Source of the DNA: Streptococcus cristatus AS 1.3089 | Lineage (GTDB): Bacteria; Bacillota; Bacilli; Lactobacillales; Streptococcaceae | Direction: 5' to 3' | Length of the DNA stretch: 64,000 bases | Assembly (NCBI RefSeq): GCF_000385925.1 | Contig: NC_021175.1 | Span: 441,501 to 505,500 of the forward strand | Shown here: piece by piece, positions 4,185-38,612 of the stretch | Position numbering within the stretch: position 1 is the first letter of the stretch | How the letters are laid out: each line of letters opens with the position of its first letter | Translations under genes and position numbers: made by a program | Notes under the pieces: model-generated | Told to the model about the DNA's origin: nothing | The model's database searches: none | What the model saw: the letters and a program-made list of their open reading frames with translations, nothing else

Positions 4185-4250
4185 CTAAATATAAGCCATA
4201 GGAGCTTGAAAGCACAAAAAAACGAAAGTCCCGCGGATATGCAGAAACAT
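4185..4250 (-). CDS. Candidate 21-codon leader peptide in ABC-F 5' leader
   Basis: ATG at 4250 opens a 21-codon frame that begins MFLHIRGTFVF and ends PMAYI, stopping at TAG. No strong Shine-Dalgarno precedes it. Its 3' part overlaps bases able to pair with downstream leader (GCTTTCA with TGAAAGC), so ribosome stalling here could change the leader fold. Translation is not demonstrated by the sequence. Confidence 0.35.
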   Translation of the reverse strand: MFLHIRGTFVFLCFQAPMAYI

Positions 4251-4290
4251 GACAAAATCTACTAAATAAAGTTTCCCTTAAAAAATAGAC

Positions 4291-4302
4291 TTAATTTTTC
4301 AT
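4291..4302 (-). CDS. Three-codon upstream ORF (MKN) in ABC-F leader
   Basis: ATG AAA AAT TAA, preceded by GGAGG 11 bases upstream and a second GGAG closer in. It begins about 30 bases after the predicted -10. As I recall, the antibiotic-responsive leader of Listeria lmo0919, an ABC-F gene, also has a three-residue uORF ahead of an attenuator. The arrangement here (tiny uORF, alternative hairpins, terminator, ABC-F gene) matches that layout. Confidence 0.5.
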   Translation of the reverse strand: MKN

Positions 4303-4335
4303 GTCTCCGTGTACCTCCGAAATCATTCTATCTTT

Positions 4336-4364
4336 AGTCTAGCAAAAAGGGCAATATAAGTCAA
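4336..4364 (-). promoter_or_regulatory. Promoter for ABC-F gene
   Basis: Minus-strand TTGACT (4359-4364) and TAGACT (4336-4341) are separated by exactly 17 bases. The -35 box starts inside the T-run of the glnQ terminator, so the two units are packed back to back. The resulting leader is about 295 nt. Confidence 0.7.
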
Positions 4365-4394
4365 CAAAAATCCTGAAAGATTACTTTCAGGATT
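4362..4394 (-). terminator. Terminator after glnPQ
   Basis: AATCCTGAAAG pairs with CTTTCAGGATT around a four-base loop, followed by TTTTTGTTG on the minus strand. It ends the glnP-glnQ operon. Confidence 0.85.
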
Positions 4395-4402
4395 CGTCAT
4401 AT

Positions 4403-5143
4403 CTATACATTGAGCACCTTGTCCAAGAAATCCTTGAGACGTGGATGCTGAGGGTTATCGAAGATTTGATCTGGTTTGCCGTCTTCTAGGAATTCACCGT
4501 CAGCGGTAAAGATGACGCGATTAGCGACCTGACGGGCAAAGCCCATTTCGTGAGTCACAATCAGCATGGTCATGCCCTGCTGAGCCAGATCCTTCATAAC
4601 GTTGAGAACGTCACCAACCATTTCAGGGTCAAGGGCAGAAGTCGGCTCGTCAAAGAGCATAATGTCCGGGTTCATAGCCAATCCTCGAGCGATGGCCACC
4701 CGCTGCTTTTGTCCCCCTGACAAGCTGTCTGGTTTGGCATCAGCCTTGTCCGCCAAGCCTACCTTTTCCAAGAGCTCCATACCAAGTTTATCTGCATCAG
4801 CTTGGCTCATTCGCTTGTGCTCAACTGGTGCAAAGGTGATATTTTGCAGGACAGTCATGTGTGGGAAGAGGTTGAAGTGCTGGAAGACCATCCCGATATC
4901 TTCACGAACATGGTCTACATTTGTAGCCTTGTCTGTCAAATCATAACCGTTGACAGTAATGGTTCCACTGGTTACTTCTTCGAGCAGGTTCAGGCTGCGT
5001 AGGAAAGTTGATTTACCTGATCCAGAAGGACCGATGATACAGACAACATCTCCCTCGTAGAACTTAGCACTAATCCCTTTCAGGACTTCATTTTTCCCAT
5101 AGTATTTATGTAAATCATTAACATCAATTTTTAATTTAGCCAT
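4403..5143 (-). CDS. glnQ: Glutamine/amino-acid ABC transporter ATPase
   Basis: 246-residue polar amino acid uptake ATPase. Walker [10 protein letters not shown] (about residues 37-45), Q-loop [13 protein letters not shown], signature [14 protein letters not shown], Walker [15 protein letters not shown] and H-loop IVTHEM are all intact. It energises import through the permease encoded immediately upstream; the start codon overlaps the glnP stop region (both at 5143), so the two are translationally coupled. In Lactococcus and streptococci the GlnPQ system imports glutamine, glutamate and asparagine. Confidence is high for the family and good for the substrate class. Confidence 0.93.
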
Positions 5144-7317
5144 TAGTGAATCCTCTTTTCTAAGCGTTTAGCTAATCTTGTTAAGAGTGTGATGATGACC
5201 AAGTAAAGCACTGCTAGGATAGCATACATCTTGAAGCTCTGATAGTTACGGGCAATGATGATTTTACCTGTTTGGAAGAGCTCAACAAGTCCGATAGCTG
5301 ATACGATTGTTGTATCTTTGAGGGCGATAACAAACTGGTTGACAAAGTTTGGTAGCATAATCTTGGTTGCTTGAGGTAGGATAATCTTGCGCATGGTCTT
5401 TCCATACGAAATCCCTAGACTTCGGCTAGCTTCCATCTGTCCGGCTGGAACGGCTTGAATCCCTCCGCGAACAATCTCGGCGATATAAGCACCAGCATTG
5501 AGGGACAGGGCAATGGTCCCTGCGACAAAGTCGTTAATCGGACTCTGTTGACCAGTCATAGATTCAAGGAAGTTTGGAATTCCCCAGAAAATGAAGGCTG
5601 CCAGAATCATAAGTGGAATACCACGGATAACATCGACAAAAATTTCTGAAATAATTCGAAGCGCTTTGATTGGGCTGACGCTAAACATCCCAAAGATAAT
5701 CCCGATGACCATGGCAATCGCAAAGGAAATAAGTGCCAATGAGATAGTAATTCCAAGACCACTCAAAAGTTGTTTGTAGTTGTTTTGGAGAAGTCCCCAG
5801 ATAGTTGTTTCGTCAACGGTTATAGAAGCATCTTGATTCGCTGAGAGATATTTATCAAGGATTTCTTGATATTTACCATTCGCTTTCAGATTAGCCAGGC
5901 CGTTATTGAACATCTCGATGAGTTCAGGGTTGGTTCCTTTTTTCACTGCAAAAGCAAGATCACCACTAGGAGTTCCCTCGATTGGCGTTTTCATTTTCTT
6001 GCCTTGGTTGATAGCATATTTGACAACGGGCTCATCATCCATAATAGCAGCGACAGAGCCAGAATTCAGACTATCATACATAGAAGAACCGTCTGAAAAT
6101 GTTTTGATTTTGTAGCCGTATTTGCTTTGATTTTCGACGAGGAAGGTTTGAGAGGAGGTACCATTTTTGACTCCGACTGTCTTTCCTTTCAAGTCGTCAT
6201 AAGAGCTAATAGTGCTTGATTCTGTCACCGCAATGATAGAGTTAGCAGTGTAGTATGGTTCAGAGAAATCAAAGGTTTCTTTGCGGGCCTCTGTCACAGA
6301 CATCCCAGCAATCATCCCGTCAGCTTGACCAGATTGAACAGCATTGATGGCAGCATCAAAACCAGGGTTAGAAATTTCAAGTGTAAAACCTTGATCTTCG
6401 GCAATGGCCTTGATCAAGTCCATGTCAATACCAGTATATTTGTTGCTATCATTTTGGAAAACGAAAGGAGCGAAGGATGAGTCGCTGGCAATCGTATATT
6501 TAGCTTTGACTGGAGTGGCTTTTTGTCCAGACTTGGTTGTAGTTTCTGGCACTGCTGAATTTGTTGAAGTTTTGGAAGCAGCCGTCCACTTGTTGATGAT
6601 GTCCTTCAAGGTGCCATCTTTTTTCATCTGAGCCAAGGCTTCGTTAAACTCAGTGACTAGGTATTCGTATTTGCTGCCTTTTTTGACACCAAATGCGAAG
6701 CTACCAACAGCCTCACCCTTCATTGAGATTTTCAAATCTTGCCCTTGGTTGATTGCATATTCGATAACGGGTTGGTCATCCATAGCTGCATCAACTGCTC
6801 CGGCTGCTAGGCTGTTATACATGAGGTCGCCTGTATCAAATGTTTTGATAGTAAAACCATACTTGTCCTTGATTTTCTCAAGGAAACGTTGCGCGGCAGT
6901 ACCGTTTTTGACACCGACTGTTTTTCCTTTAAGTTGATCGTAAGACTTTATTGTATTAGCCTTGGTCGTTGCAATGACAACTTTTGTGTCATAATATGTG
7001 TCAGACATAGTAAAGACTTTTTCGCGTTCAGCAGTCTTAGTCATACCTGCCATAATAGCATCGGCTTGTCCTGCTTGAACCGCATTAACAGCCGCATCAA
7101 AACCGGGGAAGGACATTTCATATTCCCAACCTTTGATGTCAGCTACTTTATTGATAATATCAACATCAATTCCTTTATATGTCTGGTCTACGTCTTTAAA
7201 TTCAAATGGGGCGTAAGCCGTGTCAGATACGATTTTAATAGTATCTGCATGAATAGTTGTCCCTAAGGCAAAGATAGGGAACAATGCTAGCAGAAAAGCT
7301 ATGATTTTTTTCTTCAT
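5143..7317 (-). CDS. glnP: Glutamine ABC transporter: two substrate-binding domains fused to permease
   Basis: 724 residues. A signal peptide (residues 1-24, ending IHA) leads into a first periplasmic-type binding domain (about 27-245) and a second, clearly paralogous one (about 270-495; both carry the repeated FDAAxNAVQxGQADxMIAGM and [11 protein letters not shown] segments). The C-terminal 200 residues form the HisM/GlnP-type permease with the EAA-like motif ([17 protein letters not shown]). The tandem binding-domain fusion is the GlnP architecture known from Lactococcus, where the domains differ in affinity for glutamine, glutamate and asparagine. AAGGAG precedes the ATG by seven bases. 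The gene is the first of a two-gene operon with glnQ. Confidence 0.95.
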
Positions 7318-28838: not shown

Positions 28839-29693
28839 ATGAATACAAATCTTGCTAGCTTCATCGTGGGGATTATCACAGATGAAAACGATCGGTTTTA
28901 CTTTGTTCAGAAGGACGGACAGACTTATGCGCTTTCTAAGGAAGAGGGACCGCATGAGCTCGGTCAATCTGTCAAGGGCTTTGCTTACAGCGATATGAAG
29001 CAGAAGCTTCGCCTAACGACTCTTGAAGTCACAGCGACCCAAGAACAGTTTGGTTGGGGAACAGTGACGGAGGTTCGCAAGGATCTGGGCGTCTTTGTCG
29101 ATACCGGTTTGCCAGATAAGCAAATCGTGGTGTCACTAGACATCTTGCCAGAAATCAAGGAACTTTGGCCTAAGAAGGGCGACCGCCTCTATATTCGTCT
29201 GGATGTGGACAAGAAAGACCGCATCTGGGGTCAACTGGCTTATCAAGAGGACTTCCAGCGCTTGGCTCGCCCTGCCTACAATAATATGCAGAACCAAAAC
29301 TGGCCGGCCATCGTTTATCGGCTCAAGCTTTCTGGCACCTTTGTCTATCTGCCAGAGAATAATATGCTGGGCTTCATTCATCCGAGTGAGCGCTATGCAG
29401 AGCCACGTCTGGGGCAGGTCTTGGATGCACGAGTAATTGGCTTCCGTGAAGTAGACCGCACCCTTAATCTCTCCCTCAAGCCTCGCTCCTTTGAAATGCT
29501 GGAAAACGATGCCCAGATGATTCTGACCTATCTAGAGAGCAATGGCGGCTTCATGACTTTGAACGATAAATCTTCACCAGACGACATCAAGGCCACTTTT
29601 GGCATTTCCAAAGGCCAGTTTAAAAAAGCCCTGGGCGGTCTTATGAAAGCTGGGAAAATCAAGCAAGATCCGACTGGAACGGAGTTGGTTTAA
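28839..29693 (+). CDS. cvfB: CvfB-like S1-domain RNA-binding protein
   Basis: 284 residues. Matches the CvfB/YitL family: tandem S1-like beta-barrel segments (about residues 1-65, 66-140 with TVTEVRKDLGVFVDTGLPDKQIVV, and 145-215 with MLGFIHPSERYAEPRLGQVLDARV), followed by a C-terminal winged-helix (about 220-284, ILTYLESNGGFMTLNDKSSP..FGISKGQFKKALGGLMKAGKI). In Staphylococcus aureus CvfB is an RNA-binding regulator of virulence genes. Position after pyrH-frr is common in streptococci. Confidence 0.85.
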   Translation: MNTNLASFIVGIITDENDRFYFVQKDGQTYALSKEEGPHELGQSVKGFAYSDMKQKLRLTTLEVTATQEQFGWGTVTEVRKDLGVFVDTGLPDKQIVVSLDILPEIKELWPKKGDRLYIRLDVDKKDRIWGQLAYQEDFQRLARPAYNNMQNQNWPAIVYRLKLSGTFVYLPENNMLGFIHPSERYAEPRLGQVLDARVIGFREVDRTLNLSLKPRSFEMLENDAQMILTYLESNGGFMTLNDKSSPDDIKATFGISKGQFKKALGGLMKAGKIKQDPTGTELV

Positions 29694-29774
29694 TAAAGAC
29701 AATTCTTGTATCAATCTTTAAAAAGTATTTGATGTTTTTACAATAGATAATAATATGAAAACGAAGGGATAAGT

Positions 29775-31354
29775 ATGGTAACGCATAATAGGGAAGCTAG
29801 TCAGCGAGCAGACTTACATAGGAAAATCTGGTCTATAGCTGACAATGTGCGGGGAGCAGTTGACGGCTGGGATTTTAAACAATATGTACTTGGAATTCTC
29901 TTTTATCGCTTTATTTCAGAAAATATGTCAGCTTATTTTGATAAGGCAGAGCATGAAGCAGGTGATTTAGAATTTCGTTATGCTAACCTGACGGACGAAG
30001 AAGCAGAAGAAGATTTCCGTCCTGGAACAGTTGAAGAAAAAGGTTTCTTTATCCTTCCTAGTCAACTATTTGAAAATGTGGTTAAGAACGCTTCAACAAA
30101 ATGAAAAATTTAAACGAAGAATTGGCCAATATTTTCCTAAGCTATTGAGAAGTCAGCAATTGGTTCAAATCAGAGGATGATATCAAAGGTTTGTTTGATA
30201 ACTTGGATACACGAAGCAACATCCTTGGTGGAACTGTTCCAGAAAAAAATAAACGCCTATCGGATATACTAACAGGTATTAATGATATCCCTCTTGGTAA
30301 CTTTGAGGACAATGATATTGATGCTTTTGGGGATGCCTATGAGTTCTTGATTTCCAACTATGCGAGTAATGCTGGTAAAAGTGGTGGAGAATTTTTCACT
30401 CCCCAGACAGTTTCTAAATTACTTGCTCGTTTGGTTATGGTTGGTAAGGACAAGATCAACAAGGTTTATGACCCAACATGTGGTTCGGGATCGCTCCTCC
30501 TTCAAATGAAAAAACAATATGAAGATCATATCCTAGAGGATGGTTTCTTTGGTCAGGAAATCAATATGACCAACTACAACTTGGCTCGTATGAATATGTT
30601 CTTGCACAATATCAACTACAATAACTTTGATATTAAGCGAGGAGATACCCTTTTAAATCCTCAGCATTTAGAAGAAAAGCCTTTTGACGCCATCGTCTCT
30701 AACCCTCCTTACTCTGTCAAATGGGTGGGAGATGGAGATCCAACTCTGATAAACGATGACCGCTTTGCGCCAGCAGGGAAACTAGCTCCTAAGTCAAAAG
30801 CTGACTTTGCCTTTATCATGCATAGTCTAAACCACCTGTCTAATAAAGGTCGAGCAGCTATTGTTTGTTTCCCGGGCATTCTCTATCGTGGAGGTGCTGA
30901 AAAGACCATTCGTCAGTATCTAGTAGATAACAACTTTGTTGAAGCCGTCATTGCGCTTCCAGATAATCTCTTTTTTGGAACTTCTATTGCAACTACGATT
31001 TTAGTTCTGGCGAAGAATAAACTTGAAAATAAAACACTCTTTATTGATGCGAGTAAAGAATTCAAAAAAGAGACCAATAACAATGTTTTGACAGATAGCA
31101 ATATCGAGCATATTGTTGAATTGTTCACTAATTATCAAAGTGTGGACTATAAAGCAACTCTTGTTGATAATGAGGAGATTGGCTCTGAGCAAGATTACAA
31201 TCTATCTGTGTCAACCTATGTCGAACAAGAAGATACACGTGAGAAGATTGATATTGATGTGCTCAATAAAGAAATCGCTGAGACTGTGACAAAGATTGAC
31301 CACTTGCGTGCAGAGATAGATAAGATTGTAGAGGAACTGAGCCATGGTAAATGA
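29775..31354 (+). pseudogene. hsdM: Type I restriction-modification methyltransferase subunit HsdM, frameshifted
   Basis: Two adjacent open frames (29775-30104 and about 30191-31354) encode one HsdM. The first gives the N-terminal helical domain (RKIWSIADNVRGAVDGWDFK); the second holds [17 protein letters not shown], AdoMet motif [13 protein letters not shown] and catalytic NPPY at 30701-30712. Between them, comparison with the expected protein reveals an extra A near 30100, an extra A near 30106, an extra T near 30138 and a missing A near 30168, net +2. Corrected length is 525 residues, normal for HsdM. Without correction no full methyltransferase is made, yet hsdR downstream is intact, which would be harmful unless the frameshifts are sequencing errors. 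It opens an operon hsdM-rhuM-hsdS-prrC-hsdR. Confidence 0.85.
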
Positions 31355-32348
31355 TGTGATTCTCTATAGAACAGATGACGGAGAGTCCGTTATTGAGCTT
31401 CACTTGGATAACGGAACGGTCTGGCTGACCCAACAAGAACTAGCTAAGCTCTTTCAAACTTCCAAGCAAAACATTAGTAAACATATCAAGGCAATATTTG
31501 AAGATGGTGAGTTGGATGAAACAGTGGTTGTCAACTATCAGTTGACAACCACTCGACATGGTGCAATGGCTGGTAAAACTCAGTCAAAAAAAGTCGCCTA
31601 CTACAATCTCGATATGATTTTGGCGATTGGCTACCGTGTGCGCTCCCCTCGTGGAATCCAGTTCAGGCACTATGCTTCGACAGTCTTGAAAGAGTATCTG
31701 ATAAAGGGCTTTGCGATGGATGATGAGCGCTTGAAAAACTTGGGTGGGGGCTCTTACTTTAAAGAACTCCTGGAAAGAATCCGAGACATTCGCTCGAGCG
31801 AAAAAGTCTTTTACCGTCAGGTTTTGGATCTTTTTGCGACATCAAGTGATTACAATGCAAATACACCAGAGGCAAAGAAATTTTTTGCGACGGTTCAAAA
31901 CAAGATGCACTATGCCATTCACCACAATACTGCTAGTGAACTCATCTATAACCGTGTCGATAGCGAAAAGGAGTTTATGGGCTTGACCACTTTTAAGGGA
32001 GACCTCCCTACTTTATCTGAAGCAAAAGTAGCCAAGAACTATCTGACAGAAAAGGAACTCCGTGGTCTTAATCAGCTTGTATCAGGATATCTAGATTTTG
32101 CTGAAAGACAGGCAGAGCGAGAAGAGGTCATGACCATGGCTGACTGGGTGACACACGTAGATCGAATCCTTCTAGCTACTGGAGAAGACTTGCTGGACAA
32201 TAGTGGGATAATCTCTCGAGAACAGATGGAGCATAAGGTGGATAAGGAGTATAAGAGCTACCAAGCCAAGACCCTCAGTCAAGTTGAAAAAGATTACCTC
32301 AAGGAAATTAAAAGCATTGAAAATCTAGCCAAGGAAGGAGGTAAGTGA
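31344..32348 (+). CDS. rhuM: RhuM family protein within the restriction operon
   Basis: 334 residues. N-terminal segment [37 protein letters not shown] resembles a DNA-binding helix-turn-helix; then [34 protein letters not shown], the core RhuM signature. RhuM was named from a Salmonella pathogenicity island but its biochemical role is unknown; homologues often sit inside type I restriction loci. The start overlaps the hsdM end by 11 bases and the stop overlaps the hsdS start by four, so it is tightly embedded in the operon. A regulatory role toward restriction is inference. Confidence 0.85.
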
Positions 32349-33469
32349 TGAATAACCTAGAAGAAATCCAAAACTGTCCCGTTGAGTGGAAAGAGTTGGG
32401 GGAAGTAGTAGATTATGAGCAACCAACCAAATATATTGTATCAAGTAAAGCTTATACTGACAGTAATGAAATTCCTGTTTTAACTGCGGGACAATCATTT
32501 ATTTTAGGCTATACAAATGAAAAAGACGGTATTTATCATGCTAGCGAAAACAATCCTGTTATCATTTTTGATGATTTTACTACATCAAAACAATGGGTAG
32601 ATTTTAAATTTAAAGTAAAATCATCAGCAATGAAAATGTTAACGATAAAAGATGAATTTGAAAACGAAGTTTTATTACGCTATGTATGGCATTATTTGGG
32701 TACAATAACTTATAAACCAGATCAACATGGTAGACAATGGATTGGAACTTATTCAAAGTTTCTTATTCCAATTCCCCCTCTAGAACTTCAAGAAAAAATC
32801 GTGCAAACACTTGACAAATTCACTGATTATGTTACAGAATTGACCTCAGAATTGACCTTACGTAAAAAGCAATATTCTTATTATCGAGATAAACTCTTAT
32901 CATTTGAGAATGAAGTTTATCAGGTTGAGTGGAAAGTACTTAAAGATGTTGCTACATTGAAAAATGGGAAGGATTGGAAAAATCTCCCAATTGGTGAAAT
33001 ACCAGTATACGGCAGTGGTGGAGAAATGGGAGAGTTTGTTGCGGATTATTCTTATGACAAACCAACTGTATTGATTCCTAGGAAAGGTTCTATTTCTAAT
33101 TTATTCTATTTAGAAAAAGCTTTTTGGAACGTAGATACAATCTACTATACAGAAATTGATGAAACTAAGATTATTCCAAAGTATTTTTATTATTATTTAA
33201 CGACTGTTAATTTAGAAGAAATGTCAACTAATCCAACAAGGCCTAGTTTAACTCAAGCTATTCTTGATAAAATTAAGATCCCAGTTCCCTCTCTCGAAAT
33301 CCAATCCCGCATTGTTGAAGTTTTAGACAACTTTGATACGGTTTGTCATGACTTGAACATCGGACTCCCTAAGGAGATTGAACTTCGTCAAAAACAGTAT
33401 GAATATTTTAGAGAAAAACTCTTGACATTCACCGCCGAAGGCGAGTACACTGAGAGTAGAGTAGAGTAG
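32345..33469 (+). CDS. hsdS: Type I restriction specificity subunit HsdS (two target-recognition domains)
   Basis: 374 residues. Target-recognition domain 1 (about 1-145), conserved helical spacer (PPLELQEKIVQTLDKF..LRKKQYSYYRDKLLSF), domain 2 (about 195-305) and a second conserved helix (PSLEIQSRIVEVLDNF..LRQKQYEYFREKLLTF). It determines the bipartite DNA sequence recognised by the HsdM/HsdR complex. The last codons lie in a tandem GAGTA tract; removing one five-base unit would open the frame into the next segment (see 33460-34047). The protein as written is complete for a functional S subunit. Confidence 0.88.
   Translation: MMNNLEEIQNCPVEWKELGEVVDYEQPTKYIVSSKAYTDSNEIPVLTAGQSFILGYTNEKDGIYHASENNPVIIFDDFTTSKQWVDFKFKVKSSAMKMLTIKDEFENEVLLRYVWHYLGTITYKPDQHGRQWIGTYSKFLIPIPPLELQEKIVQTLDKFTDYVTELTSELTLRKKQYSYYRDKLLSFENEVYQVEWKVLKDVATLKNGKDWKNLPIGEIPVYGSGGEMGEFVADYSYDKPTVLIPRKGSISNLFYLEKAFWNVDTIYYTEIDETKIIPKYFYYYLTTVNLEEMSTNPTRPSLTQAILDKIKIPVPSLEIQSRIVEVLDNFDTVCHDLNIGLPKEIELRQKQYEYFREKLLTFTAEGEYTESRVE
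33454..33468 (+). repeat. Pentanucleotide tract (GAGTA)x3 at the end of hsdS
   Basis: Three perfect GAGTA units, followed by the near-unit GAGGA, with another GAGTA at 33443-33447. The hsdS frame reads TAG just after it. The downstream HsdS-like frame is open from 33460 through the tract, so loss of one unit or gain of two joins both frames. Confidence 0.8.
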
Positions 33470-34047
33470 AGGAGTGGGACAACTCCGCTATTATCAAACT
33501 TTTACAGTGGGTATTTGGTCCAATTCGAGTGAAGTTGGGACAAGTTGTCAATTTACAACGCGGGAAACGTCTTGTGAGACAACAATTAGCTACTACAGGA
33601 AGTTTTCCAGTTTATCAAAACAGCTTGGCACCTTTAGGATATTTTGAAGAATCAAACAGGGTAAAAGAAACCAGCTTTGTGATTTGTGCTGGAGCGGCTG
33701 GTGAAATCGGATATAGTGATACAGACTTTTGGGCGGCAGATGATGTTTATACATTAGAGACATCAGAAGATATTTCTGATAAATTTATGTATTATGTCTT
33801 GTTAAGTAAGCAAGATAGACTCAAATCACAAGTTCGAAAGGCTAGTATTCCTAGATTATCTAAGGATGCTATTGATAAAGTTACTTTTTATTTACCATCC
33901 CTTACTGAACAAGAAGGAATTGTCTCCATTCTTGACAATTTCAACACCTTAACCACTTCTATTTCAGAAGGTCTTCCTAAAGAGATAGAGCAGAGACAGA
34001 AACAGTATGAATACTGGAGAAATCAATTACTCAATTTTAATGAATAA
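33460..34047 (+). CDS. Third HsdS target-recognition half (out of frame with hsdS)
   Basis: The frame from 33460 reads SRVEEWDNSAIIKLLQWVFG, then a single target-recognition domain (VKLGQVVNLQRGKRL to YFLP-type end) and a conserved helix PSLTEQEGIVSILDNF..LRQKQ-like EQRQKQYEYWRNQLLNF. The first usable start is GTG at 33529, which lacks a ribosome site, so independent translation is doubtful. If fused to hsdS by a tract change the product would be about 565 residues with three recognition domains. Alternatively it is a remnant of hsdS shuffling. Confidence 0.65.
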   Translation, partial: SRVEEWDNSAIIKLLQWVFGPIRVKLGQVVNLQRGKRLVRQQLATTGSFPVYQNSLAPLGYFEESNRVKETSFVICAGAAGEIGYSDTDFWAADDVYTLETSEDISDKFMYYVLLSKQDRLKSQVRKASIPRLSKDAIDKVTFYLPSLTEQEGIVSILDNFNTLTTSISEGLPKEIEQRQKQYEYWRNQLLNFNE

Positions 34048-34060
34048 GGAAAAGTGAATT

Positions 34061-35290
34061 ATGACGGATGATAAAGTATTTAATACCTTGGAAGATGTTG
34101 CAGACGAACTGATCTCAAGTGATAAGAAGGTGCATTTAATTTATGCTTTTAATGCTACAGGGAAAACAAGGCTATCTACAATTTTAAAGGATAAATTAAA
34201 TATCTCGGAAAATGATGAAGAGTCAAAAGTAAAGAAAATACTTTATTTTAACGCTTTCACAGAAGATCTTTTTACTTGGGAAAATGATTTAGAGAATGAT
34301 GAAGATCGTTACCTCAAATATGATAAGCGTACTTTTTTTGGTAAGTTTTTAGAAGAACAGCAACAATTTGGACAAGTTATTCTCAACTTTCAGAAGTATG
34401 TCCATAACCTCATAGTTCCAAGTTTTGAGGATATTGAGAGACAGGCTAATGATAGTTCTGGATTCCCGATTTTTGATATTATTGGAGACCAGCGTGTTCC
34501 AATATTGGTGAGTGATTTTAAGGGAATTCGCTTTACTTTAGATGGTGATACAGTCAAAATTTCTAGAGGTGAGGAGAGGATATTTGTTTGGTCTATATTC
34601 CTAACTCTTTTGGAACTTATTATTGAAGAGTTAAGCGATCCAGATATTGACTCTGATTTTCAGGCCTTTAAGTATATTTATATTGACGATCCAATTTCTT
34701 CGTTAGATGATAACAATACTATTGATTCCGCTATTTTTTTAAAGGAAATTATTTCCAAATCTAAACGCACTGATTTAAAGTTTATCATTACTTCTCACCA
34801 ACCACTTTTTTATAATGTTTTGTACAATGAAATACGATTTGACAGAAAAATACCAAATAAAAAAAAGTCCTTTTATGTTATGAAAAAAGAAGTTGATAAA
34901 GAGGACAAAGTCAGATATATTTTAACTGACGTTGAGAAAGATTCTCCCTTCGGATACCACCTAAAGGTAAGAGAAGAGTTACGTAAAGCTGTAGACAGTG
35001 GACGAGTTGAAAAATTCCATTATGCTTTATTCAGAAATTTAGCGGAGAAAACAGCTACTTTCCTAGGTTACGGTAGATGGGAAGAAGTTTTATTAGGCTT
35101 AAAAGTAGCTGGCGATGAAATTACTTCAGAAAATATAGAGTTATATGCTCAAAGGATCGATTTATTTACACATAATCGCCAGTCGGAGTTAGAATACAGA
35201 GAATTACAAAGCCGAGACCAAAATACATTGATAGAGTTGTTTAATAGTTTTGAGAAAAAATATCAATTTAAGCAATTAGAGGAAGAATAA
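34061..35290 (+). CDS. prrC: PrrC-type anticodon nuclease (tRNA-Lys class)
   Basis: 409 residues, close to the roughly 396 of E. coli PrrC. ABC-ATPase marks: VHLIYAFNATGKTRLS (K35 of the P-loop), ILYFNAFTEDLFTWENDLEN, signature SRGEERIFVWSIF, Walker B YIYIDDPISSLDDNN and H-loop FIITSHQPLFYNVL. The C-terminal nuclease region contains FRNLAEKTATFLGYGRW and FTHNR, giving the proposed catalytic triad R325, E329 and H371. PrrC sits silent on its type I restriction enzyme and cleaves tRNA-Lys when phage proteins disable restriction. The gene lies between hsdS and hsdR, exactly as in the E. coli prr locus. Alanine replaces the glycine usual before TGKT. Confidence in the family is high; target tRNA is inferred. 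Confidence 0.88.
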   Translation: MTDDKVFNTLEDVADELISSDKKVHLIYAFNATGKTRLSTILKDKLNISENDEESKVKKILYFNAFTEDLFTWENDLENDEDRYLKYDKRTFFGKFLEEQQQFGQVILNFQKYVHNLIVPSFEDIERQANDSSGFPIFDIIGDQRVPILVSDFKGIRFTLDGDTVKISRGEERIFVWSIFLTLLELIIEELSDPDIDSDFQAFKYIYIDDPISSLDDNNTIDSAIFLKEIISKSKRTDLKFIITSHQPLFYNVLYNEIRFDRKIPNKKKSFYVMKKEVDKEDKVRYILTDVEKDSPFGYHLKVREELRKAVDSGRVEKFHYALFRNLAEKTATFLGYGRWEEVLLGLKVAGDEITSENIELYAQRIDLFTHNRQSELEYRELQSRDQNTLIELFNSFEKKYQFKQLEEE

Positions 35291-35292
35291 CT

Positions 35293-38200
35293 ATGGTTGA
35301 TTATTCAAAAGTGCATGAAGTAATTGCAGAAACAAATGAAGGGATTCTCTTGGCTGAGTATCAACCAGAGTATCGCACAGATAGAGAATATCAGTCTGAG
35401 GCAGACTTGGAAAATCAGTTAATTTCTGATTTGGTACATCATCTTAACTACGAACGTTTAGATATCCATACGCCTGCTGAGCTTTTAGCAAACGCCAAGC
35501 TCCAAATTGAAAAACTGAATAAAGTGACCTTTACTGAAGATGAATGGCTACGCTTTGTGGTCGAGTATCTGGACTGTCCCAATGAAGGGCTAGTTGAAAA
35601 AACACGAAAAATCCAAGAGAACCATATCTATGACTTTGTCTTTGATGATGGACGGATTAAGAATATTTTCATCCTTGATAAGAATAATATTCACAACAAC
35701 AGCATGCAGGTTATCAACCAAGTGACGCAGGTGGGGAGTCATACCAACCGTTATGATGTGACCATCCTAGTAAACGGCCTTCCTCTAGTTCAGATTGAAT
35801 TGAAGAAACGTGGGGTCAGTCTGCAAGAAGCTTTTAATCAGGTTCACCGTTATAGTAAGGAAAGCTTTAATAGTGAGAATTCTTTGTATAAGTATGTGCA
35901 GATTTTTGTGATTTCGAATGGGACTTATACACGCTATTTTGCAAATACAACGGCTCAAAATAAAAATCATTATGAGTTCACCTGTGAATGGGCAGACCGC
36001 AAGAATAAAACAATTCATGACCTAGAAGACTTTACTGTCACTTTCTTGAGCAAGCGTGTGCTCTTGGAAGTTTTGACCAAGTATTGTGTTTTTGATGCTG
36101 ATAATACATTGCTCATCATGCGCCCATATCAGATTGCAGCAACTGAGAGTATTTTGCGCAAGATTCATTCTTCCAATGAAATGAAGAGTTTTGGTTCAAT
36201 TAATGCTTGTGGCTATATCTGGCATACGACAGGGTCGGGGAAAACCTTGACGAGCTTTAAGACTGCACGCTTGGCAACAGAGTTGGACTACATTGACAAA
36301 GTGATATTCGTCGTAGATAGAAAAGACCTAGACTATCAGACCATGAAGGAATATCAAAAATTCCAACCGAATTCAGTCAATGGTAGTAATAATACAAAAG
36401 AACTCCAACGAAGTATCGAAGAAAATGATGATCGAATCATTGTCACAACTATTCAAAAGTTAAATAAGTTTATCACAGCAAATCCAAATCATGAAGTCTA
36501 TGGTAAGAAATGTGTCTTGATTTTTGACGAGTGTCATCGTTCCCAGTTTGGGAAGGCGCAGAAGCGCATCAAAAAGGCCTTTAAACAGTATGCTTTATTT
36601 GGCTTCACAGGGACACCGATTTTCCCAGAAAATAGCTTAACGGGTGAAACGACACAAGAAGTTTTTGGAGAACAACTTCATAACTATGTTATTACAGATG
36701 CTATTCGGGATAAAAAAGTCTTGAAGTTCAAGGTTGACTATAACTATATCAAACCTGAAATCAATAAGTATAGAGAAGCAGAGAAAGCAGTTGGTCAAGA
36801 GCTTGATGAGAAGAAACTAAAAAAGATGGAGAAGGAACTTCTTTTGCATCCAGAACGGATAGCAACCATCACAGAGTACCTGCTTCGAGTTTATAACACC
36901 AAAACGCATCGAAATCAACACTATACCCACAAACAAAAGCAGATGTCTGGATTTAATGCCATGTTAGCGGTACAAAGTATTGAAGCTGCTAAGTTATACT
37001 ATGACGAACTCCAGCGACAACAAGCAACTTTACCAGAAACTAGACGCTTGAAAATTGCAACCATCTTTAGCTTCGCACCAAACGAAGAACAATCTGCTTA
37101 CGGGGAAATTCAAGATGAAGAGTTAGAGCTGCAAACTACTCAAATGCCTCAATCTTCTAAAGAGTTTCTGGAAAAAGCGATTGATGACTATAATCGAATG
37201 TTCAAGACTAACTTCTCAACCGATGGAAAAGAGTTCCAAAATTACTATCGTGACCTTTCTAAACGAGTTAAGTCCAAGGAAGTGGACCTTCTAATTGTAG
37301 TGGGAATGTTCTTGACGGGATTTGATGCTCCGACTATGAATACTCTCTTTGTCGACAAAAATCTACGTTATCATGGTTTGATTCAGGCATTCTCGAGAAC
37401 CAATCGAATTTTTAACAAGGTGAAACCTTTTGGGAATATCGTTTGTTTCCGTGATTTAGAAAAGGCTACGCAAGAAGCTATTAAAACTTTTGGGGATACC
37501 AACAAACTTGAAATCATCTTAGAAAAAAGCTTTAGTGAATACATGGATGGTTTCGTGGATCAAGTAACGGGTATCAAGGTCAAAGGCTATACTGAAGTCT
37601 GTCAGGAAATTCTTGAGAAATTCCCAAATCCACAAGAAATTAAAACCGAGCATGAGAAAAAGGAGTTTGTTAAGCTCTTTGGTGAATTACTGAAACTTGA
37701 TAATGTTCTTCGAAATTATGACGAATTCCAAGAAATCGACAAACCTATTTCAGAAGGTTATCTTCAGGATTTAAGAAGTGCGTATGTGGAAATTCGAGAT
37801 GAATTTTTGAACCTTAAAAACTATGAAAAGACCAAAGATTTAGAGGTTGACCTTTCAGATGTTGAATTTGAAATTGAATTACTAAAAACAGATGAGATTA
37901 ACCTAGACTATATTCTGGCACTGATTGTTGAGAAATCGAAGAATTCTGAGTCTAAAGAAGTAATGAAAGCAGAAGTTAGCCGTGTGATTCGTTCTAGTAT
38001 TGATATCCGTGCCAAGGAGGATTTGGTATTGAATTTTATCAATTATACGGATTTATCTCAATTACAGAATAATGAATCTATCTTAGTTTCTTTTTATACT
38101 TATGCTAAAAAAGAAAAAGAAGATTCTATTCAAAAACTAGCTAATGATGAAAATCTTGGGGAAGGCTATCGTTTGTTTATTGATAAAGCGATACAAAAAG

Positions 38201-38337
38201 GATATGCGGAAAGTGGTGGGACTGATCTAGATGATATTATTCCGCCAACTTCTCGACGTAAGGGGGCCCGGGAGTTGAAGAAGCAGCAAATACTTGCTAA
38301 ACTTCAGAAATTAGTAGAAATTTACCGCGGTATATAA
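35293..38337 (+). CDS. hsdR: Type I restriction endonuclease subunit HsdR
   Basis: 1014 residues. N-terminal nuclease domain with VLVNGLPLVQIELKK-type motif (VNGLPLVQIELKKRG, about residues 158-172; the E-x-K pair), then a superfamily 2 translocase: HTTGSGKT Walker A at 311-318, DECHRSQFG at 412-420, GFTGTPIF and the motif VI-like LIQAFSRTNRIF. A helical C-terminal domain binds the HsdM/HsdS core. It is the last gene of the operon, two bases after prrC. Intact reading frame throughout, in contrast to hsdM. Confidence 0.95.
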   Translation: MVDYSKVHEVIAETNEGILLAEYQPEYRTDREYQSEADLENQLISDLVHHLNYERLDIHTPAELLANAKLQIEKLNKVTFTEDEWLRFVVEYLDCPNEGLVEKTRKIQENHIYDFVFDDGRIKNIFILDKNNIHNNSMQVINQVTQVGSHTNRYDVTILVNGLPLVQIELKKRGVSLQEAFNQVHRYSKESFNSENSLYKYVQIFVISNGTYTRYFANTTAQNKNHYEFTCEWADRKNKTIHDLEDFTVTFLSKRVLLEVLTKYCVFDADNTLLIMRPYQIAATESILRKIHSSNEMKSFGSINACGYIWHTTGSGKTLTSFKTARLATELDYIDKVIFVVDRKDLDYQTMKEYQKFQPNSVNGSNNTKELQRSIEENDDRIIVTTIQKLNKFITANPNHEVYGKKCVLIFDECHRSQFGKAQKRIKKAFKQYALFGFTGTPIFPENSLTGETTQEVFGEQLHNYVITDAIRDKKVLKFKVDYNYIKPEINKYREAEKAVGQELDEKKLKKMEKELLLHPERIATITEYLLRVYNTKTHRNQHYTHKQKQMSGFNAMLAVQSIEAAKLYYDELQRQQATLPETRRLKIATIFSFAPNEEQSAYGEIQDEELELQTTQMPQSSKEFLEKAIDDYNRMFKTNFSTDGKEFQNYYRDLSKRVKSKEVDLLIVVGMFLTGFDAPTMNTLFVDKNLRYHGLIQAFSRTNRIFNKVKPFGNIVCFRDLEKATQEAIKTFGDTNKLEIILEKSFSEYMDGFVDQVTGIKVKGYTEVCQEILEKFPNPQEIKTEHEKKEFVKLFGELLKLDNVLRNYDEFQEIDKPISEGYLQDLRSAYVEIRDEFLNLKNYEKTKDLEVDLSDVEFEIELLKTDEINLDYILALIVEKSKNSESKEVMKAEVSRVIRSSIDIRAKEDLVLNFINYTDLSQLQNNESILVSFYTYAKKEKEDSIQKLANDENLGEGYRLFIDKAIQKGYAESGGTDLDDIIPPTSRRKGARELKKQQILAKLQKLVEIYRGI

Positions 38338-38358
38338 TTATAATTTAGAAAGGACTCT

Positions 38359-38574
38359 ATGAGAAAATCTTTTTACAGCTGGCTGATGACGGAGCGTAAT
38401 CCCAAAAGTAATAAGCCAAAGGCTATTTTGGCGGACTTGGCATTTCAGGATACGGCCTTTCCCAAGCATACGGATGATTTTGATGAGGTCAGCCGTTTTC
38501 TAGAGGAGCATGCAAATTTTTCCTTTAACTTGGGCGAGTTCGATGCGATTTGGGAAGAGTATCAGGCCCATTGA
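38359..38574 (+). CDS. YozE family (UPF0346) small protein
   Basis: 71 residues: [19 protein letters not shown] at the start, then [21 protein letters not shown] and FDAIWEEYQ. This is the YozE/SAM-like fold family of unknown function, common next to phoH or cvfB in streptococci. AAAGGA precedes the ATG. Confidence 0.9.
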
Positions 38575-38612
38575 GTGGATAATGGCTGGGGATAGTCATT
38601 TTCCGCTTGCTT

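Follow-up and report, generated by a model that had tools for sequence, protein, structure and literature searches.

The window analysed here is a stretch of 64,000 nucleotides (C1:441501-505500) from a source genome that consists of a single 2.14-Mb contig. It carries a type I, IC-like restriction-modification locus, in which an HsdS with recognition domains (TRDs) and conserved helices (CRs) is encoded beside hsdM, which is broken in the window, and hsdR. Open reading frames together with domain and profile searches give the order hsdM (two fragments), rhuM, hsdS, third TRD, prrC, and hsdR, all on the + strand. The 5' fragment of hsdM (29775-30104; HsdM_N, PF12161, E 1.2e-12) loses its frame downstream, and the 3' fragment (30191-31354) contains the N6 methylase domain (PF02384, E 6.6e-114) and matches TIGR00497 from model position 135 on. 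The accessory gene rhuM (31344-32348; Virulence_RhuM, PF13310, E 6e-102; PADLOC candidate PDC-S05) is followed by hsdS (32345-33469), whose 374 residues comprise TRD1, CR1, TRD2, and CR2. Behind the third TRD lie a prrC-like anticodon-nuclease gene (34061-35290; PADLOC PrrC, E 1.7e-106; AAA_13) and hsdR (35293-38337; TIGR00348, E 8.7e-177; PADLOC REase_I).

The hsdM-hsdS interval is an exchangeable slot for accessory genes. It is occupied by rhuM in the window, by an Abi_2 gene in locus L035, and by a DUF1828/1829 gene in L044, and a remnant of rhuM adjoins the resident gene in both of these relatives. In other loci prrC is absent from this position, diverged, or replaced by an HTH/M78-peptidase gene (L048).

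In EcoprrI, a type IC system, prrC is likewise placed between hsdS and hsdR, and in EcoR124 specificity varies with the number of spacer repeats. The EcoR124I/EcoR124II and EcoprrI systems are similar to the window locus in their CR spacer repeats and in the location of prrC; they differ in having a two-TRD HsdS without a gated third TRD. A 12-bp direct repeat is present twice in CR1 of the window (32835-32858; TELTSELT) and resembles the EcoR124-type spacer repeat, and the copy number of T[SAT]EL in CR1 differs among relatives. By analogy, the number of CR1 repeats could provide a second layer of possible specificity variation, acting on the spacer. The HsdS of EcoR124I (PDB 7bst) is 39% identical over the aligned TRD1-TRD2 core, as computed for P0121, a 93% identical relative of the window hsdS. 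LEAT and TAEL repeats are mentioned in the part of PMC6789123 that was available.

The repeat tract and its reading frames

The hsdS stop codon, TAG at 33467-33469, falls within a simple sequence repeat of AGAGT in 3.8 copies (33453-33471), corresponding to three full GAGTA units, as identified by ORF reading and TRF. A further GAGTA at 33443-33447 stands isolated, outside the array. The array is the sole period-5 entry among the 23 TRF rows scoring at least 30 in the 64-kb window, and period-5 runs reaching 3.8 copies, of which these 64 kb contain one, arose in 0 of 40 Markov-1 simulations. The locus has the makings of a contingency locus, namely a tandem repeat, with a unit that is not a multiple of three, inside a coding frame.

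Downstream, an open frame of 195 codons extends from 33460 to 34047. Its first ATG, GTG, or TTG is the GTG at 33529, preceded by a start-less linker of 23 codons (33460-33528; SRVEEWDNSAIIKLLQWVFGPIR) that is conserved in split and fused alleles. GAGGAG is present at the 3' edge of the tract (33469-33474), and no in-frame ATG, GTG, or TTG follows it at usable spacing. Counted from the GTG, the third recognition domain and its helix, TRD3 and CR3, span 172 residues (33529-34047; PF01420, E 4.8e-24), so that Pfam places two Methylase_S stretches in hsdS and one in the downstream frame. The third unit is 35% identical to hsdS over residues 26-193; in a set biased by the queries, TRD3 clusters apart from TRD1 and TRD2. 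A 51-nt direct repeat, with 75% identity between its copies, links CR2 (33362-33412) with CR3 (33970-34020). Purifying selection acts on the third unit: among three split alleles the dN/dS of linker plus TRD3 is 0.10-0.17, and the 23 start-less codons differ by at most one amino acid per pair.

The hsdS frame enters the GAGTA tract with the codons AGT AGA GTA GAG TAG. A tract of three or more units always terminates hsdS because TAG then falls in its frame. The repeat supplies its own stop, and any length of at least three units gives the same two-TRD protein, while only two units join the frames. CAGTA tracts, found in relatives, have no such built-in stop and run in three frames.

Split and fused alleles in relatives

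We searched the genus with positions 33100-34050 of the window and obtained matches in 61 of 284 genomes, its own included; the window and the 40 best of the other 60 were mapped. The third TRD unit is present in 39 of these 41 loci, of which 14 are fused (one ORF of 537-629 codons) and 25, with the window allele among them, are split, as called by a strict classifier for 31 loci and by eye for eight. In L043 and L064, hsdS is also interrupted between TRD1 and TRD2. The remaining two loci, L066 and L070, contain a plain two-TRD hsdS with neither tract nor third unit. In both (4555-5733 and 4187-5377, respectively), the CR2-type helix ends in a CR3-like YWR...FNF tail, as would result from a deletion that removed the third unit by way of the CR2/CR3 direct repeat.

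The preliminary description, which had rightly placed three GAGTA units over the hsdS stop and an open frame without a ribosome site of its own from 33460 behind it, proposed that the third TRD is joined or left off according to tract length, joining through loss of one unit or gain of two. Joined and unjoined alleles both occur naturally, and the proposal is borne out for the loss, as all ten GAGTA tracts of two units are fused. It fails for the gain, since all ten tracts of three to six units, the window included, are split, and a natural five-unit allele (L061/L091) is among them.

A quick hsdR tree was built with 35 rows, four of the 39 loci being omitted for an hsdR that the stretch lacks or holds only in broken or cut form. 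The tree requires at least 13 changes between fused and split for 13 fused rows, which is the maximum possible; 8 of its 32 inner branches are weak. Recombination of hsdS relative to hsdR could partly explain this scatter.

A protein search with the window hsdS, of which the best 120 of 7997 matches were listed, yielded as best match among those listed a natural 564-residue fusion, P0121, with three Methylase_S stretches and with TRD1, TRD2, and TRD3 of the types found in the window; it is identical to the window at 346 of 373 and 170 of 195 residues. The same search lists dozens of Streptococcus suis proteins of 386-404 and 585-612 residues. Among the 233 proteins listed by this and a further search, the junction motif occurs in 228 and is missing from five. 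Fused forms account for 178 of the 228 and split forms for the other 50, proportions that the choice of queries biases. The listed proteins include 30 groups of at least two members that are letter-identical up to the tract, throughout the TRD1-TRD2 part. Unit number had been suggested for comparison among related genomes, and it does vary: 12 of the 30 groups show more than one tract state, 10 contain both fused and split members, and nine of the 12 include proteins named S. suis. These states and unit numbers were read from protein sequences, and one row counted as split (P0217) comes from an incomplete record. CAGTA numbers inferred in this way are 1, 2, 4, 5, 7, 8, and 11 for split and 3, 6, and 9 for fused proteins. 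As read from the proteins, alleles with identical TRD1-TRD2 parts therefore vary in tract length and include in-frame and out-of-frame versions, the behavior of a contingency locus. In one group (P0124, P0125, P0130, and P0131) the letter-identical TRD1-TRD2 part is followed by three GAGTA tails and one CAGTA tail, which suggests that tract, linker, and TRD3 move together when exchanged.

Tracts at this junction extend beyond the genus. A set of named loci, the best 80 of 223, was sorted by the strict classifier into 19 split, 17 fused, and 44 uncalled. Among the 36 called loci only L106, from a Planctomycetota metagenome-assembled genome (MAG), is without a tract. The other 35 comprise 22 from Streptococcus and 13 from elsewhere: Peptoniphilus gorbachii, P. 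vaginalis, P. duerdenii, P. faecalis, a Peptoniphilaceae MAG, Parvimonas, an Ezakiella MAG, a Gemella MAG, Eggerthia, Erysipelotrichaceae, Aerococcaceae, a Eubacteriales MAG, and Leptotrichia hongkongensis. Eleven units were found (GAGTA, CAGTA, GGACAGT, GGAAC, GCACGCC, AGAC, AGCAC, AGCA, GCCT, AC, and AG), GGAAC in L071 only. Their lengths in the Streptococcus and the 13 other loci are 2, 4, 5, or 7 bases, never a multiple of three, and at the junctions shown the tract immediately follows the R[ED]xL[LF]x[FY] motif that ends CR2. At 65 of 67 junctions from the two sets of loci a run of at least 14 nt is present, compared with 82 of 2119 control windows taken from these loci; the two junctions without such a run are L106, which has no tract, and L148 (AG x5). 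The 67 junctions are not independent because some genomes are in both sets and common descent makes many junctions similar.

A putative gate on the third recognition domain

With the tract and its frames, the natural split and fused alleles, the tract variation over identical TRD1-TRD2 parts, the selection, and the breadth established, we consider that this is probably a contingency locus in an EcoR124I/EcoprrI-like type I system, in which the tract at the end of CR2 gates a start-less third TRD unit. That tract length switches the form of the protein in this family is very likely. The short tandem repeat would set the frame into the third unit, and slipped-strand mispairing at the tract would be the cause of toggling between a two-TRD and a three-TRD HsdS. 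In the split state, with at least three GAGTA units as in the window, a canonical two-TRD HsdS would be made and TRD3 left untranslated; in the joined state, with two units, the product would be a TRD1-TRD2-TRD3 HsdS of roughly 565 residues. Because CR3 is a CR2-type helix, TRD3-CR3 could compete with TRD2-CR2 for the TRD1-CR1 half, an idea to which we give about an even chance. The three-TRD HsdS would then use TRD3 instead of TRD2 or together with it, and the resulting methyltransferase would have a further bipartite target or a different one. We think it reasonably likely that the methylated motifs change with tract state.

CR2 and CR3 are the closest helix pair in 168 of the 175 fused proteins that could be parsed, and CR1 and CR3 in the other seven; 17 of 192 fused proteins were unparsed. 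In an AlphaFold model TRD1 and TRD2 form an EcoR124I-like core and TRD3 is placed apart, behind a hinge with pLDDT below 50; this predicted placement lends no support to pairing of TRD1 with TRD3, and the pTM is only 0.55. As the window tract has only 3.8 copies (three to four units), slow switching is expected, as it is for a GAGCA x6 tract (PMC6265453).

In this strain the switch may be idle, as hsdM is frame-broken. Its two parts lie in different frames, with four gap openings relative to the intact hsdM of L032, and hsdM is a single ORF in 36 of the 37 relatives that have it in the stretch, the exception being L066, where it is also split. The break could reflect decay or a sequencing error, and the methyltransferase may be inactive unless the latter applies or another HsdM serves; the genome has a second type I system at C1:225698-227270. 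We regard it as an even call whether phase variation is real in the relatives while the locus is decaying here, leaving the tract without effect. Besides the hsdM break, the terminal hsdR branch of the window, 0.074 compared with 0.008-0.045 for the 16 remaining rows in the clade, is consistent with decay; hsdS, TRD3, prrC, and hsdR are nevertheless all open, the dN/dS of TRD3 is low, and the hsdM break may stem from a sequencing error. Decay in this strain is compatible with a gated third TRD in the family.

The downstream unit could instead be a silent cassette for domain movement, with recombination across the CR2/CR3 direct repeat swapping TRD2 for TRD3 and the tract incidental. The 51-nt repeat with its 75% identity, the two-TRD HsdS of L066 and L070 without tract or third unit, the group in which GAGTA and CAGTA tails follow one identical TRD1-TRD2 part, which indicates that the 3' part is swapped as one piece, and the TRD movement reported for Helicobacter pylori and Streptococcus pyogenes in the available part of PMC3077401 all fit such a cassette. 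It predicts neither a frame-gating tract built from many units, never a multiple of three and at least 14 nt long at nearly all junctions, nor the natural fused ORFs in 14 of 39 loci, and we judge it unlikely. Separate production of the third unit as a half-S subunit, by reinitiation or from its own start and acting in homodimers or hybrid complexes with joining secondary, is very improbable: H. pylori TRD3 alone methylates palindromic sites (PMC3936762, in part), half-S subunits and palindromic-site methylation are discussed in the portion of PMC12429846 available, and GAGGAG lies at the tract edge, but the first possible start codon comes only after 23 codons and has no recognisable ribosome site, and those 23 codons are nearly invariant among the split alleles.

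A gated third TRD combines elements that are each known. The streptococcal SpnIII/ivr, SsuCC20p, and tvr loci switch by inverted repeats, or by excision, with recombinases. No inverted repeat of at least 20 nt is shared between hsdS copies in 29000-38600, where the single inverted pair (23 nt) has both arms inside TRD1, and we rejected an inverting locus of the SpnIII/ivr type. Like the present locus, those type I systems have TRDs in excess of what one HsdS uses, and they change specificity (PMC7394358, in part), as the present one would. NgoAV of Neisseria gonorrhoeae is similar in that a tract in hsdS alters protein length and hence specificity, and its CR repeats (LEAT) vary as the CR repeats do here; it differs in its poly-G tract and in a truncated form that keeps 208 of 410 residues (PMC9577141, PMC6789123, and PMC7394358, each in part). 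We infer that NgoAV alternates between half and whole HsdS, with one and two TRDs. Truncation to one TRD does not apply to the window, where the truncated form keeps two Methylase_S stretches.

The preliminary description had not met a form with a third recognition domain in print; a third TRD in HsdS is known, as JHP1422 (M.Hpy99XV) of H. pylori J99 is a functional three-TRD HsdS that methylates two recognition sites (PMC3936762, in part). Like the fused relatives described here, it contains three consecutive TRDs with helical connectors in one polypeptide. Unlike in the window locus, its TRD2 and TRD3 are identical and yield a palindromic and an asymmetric motif; its allelic variation is ascribed to duplication and exchange, and the portion of the paper available describes no tract gating the third TRD. 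MAGa6310 of Mycoplasma agalactiae is also a three-TRD HsdS (PMC3077401, in part). In JHP1272 and HP1353-HP1354 of H. pylori a small domain is gained through a second homopolymeric tract, and the motif changes with it (PMC3936762, same part); these are type IIG enzymes rather than type I HsdS. With hsdS repeat switches, three-TRD HsdS, a tract-added type IIG domain, and inverting hsdS already known, what would be new is their combination, a tract gating a third TRD. No such gate was found in the literature searched, parts of papers in many cases, with the hsdS repeat survey of Atack et al. (FASEB J 2020) outside this coverage.

The occurrence of the junction in Streptococcus, Peptoniphilus, Parvimonas, Ezakiella, Gemella, Eggerthia, Aerococcaceae, Erysipelotrichaceae, and Leptotrichia leads us to favor slightly the view that a third TRD gated by a repeat is a general type I device that has evolved more than once; it would add or swap a specificity, keep the two-TRD enzyme otherwise, and never be off. 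A repeat-driven specificity switch would then span streptococci and other, mostly Gram-positive, bacteria. If the gate works as proposed, a working two-TRD enzyme is kept in the other state, so that the system would switch between specificities without ever being off; methylation across the genome, and the set of phage and other DNA restricted, would change without the cost of an off state. Natural allele pairs with identical TRD1-TRD2 parts are suited to methylome comparison, and the switch offers a natural set for asking how the M2S complex accommodates a third TRD. Read gene by gene, the locus yields a truncated-looking hsdS and a fragment, which hides the system. The longest tracts, GGAAC in more than 15 copies (L071, 3191-3952) and AGCAC in 28 copies (L104, 5138-5280; L. 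hongkongensis), make promising candidates for rapid switching.
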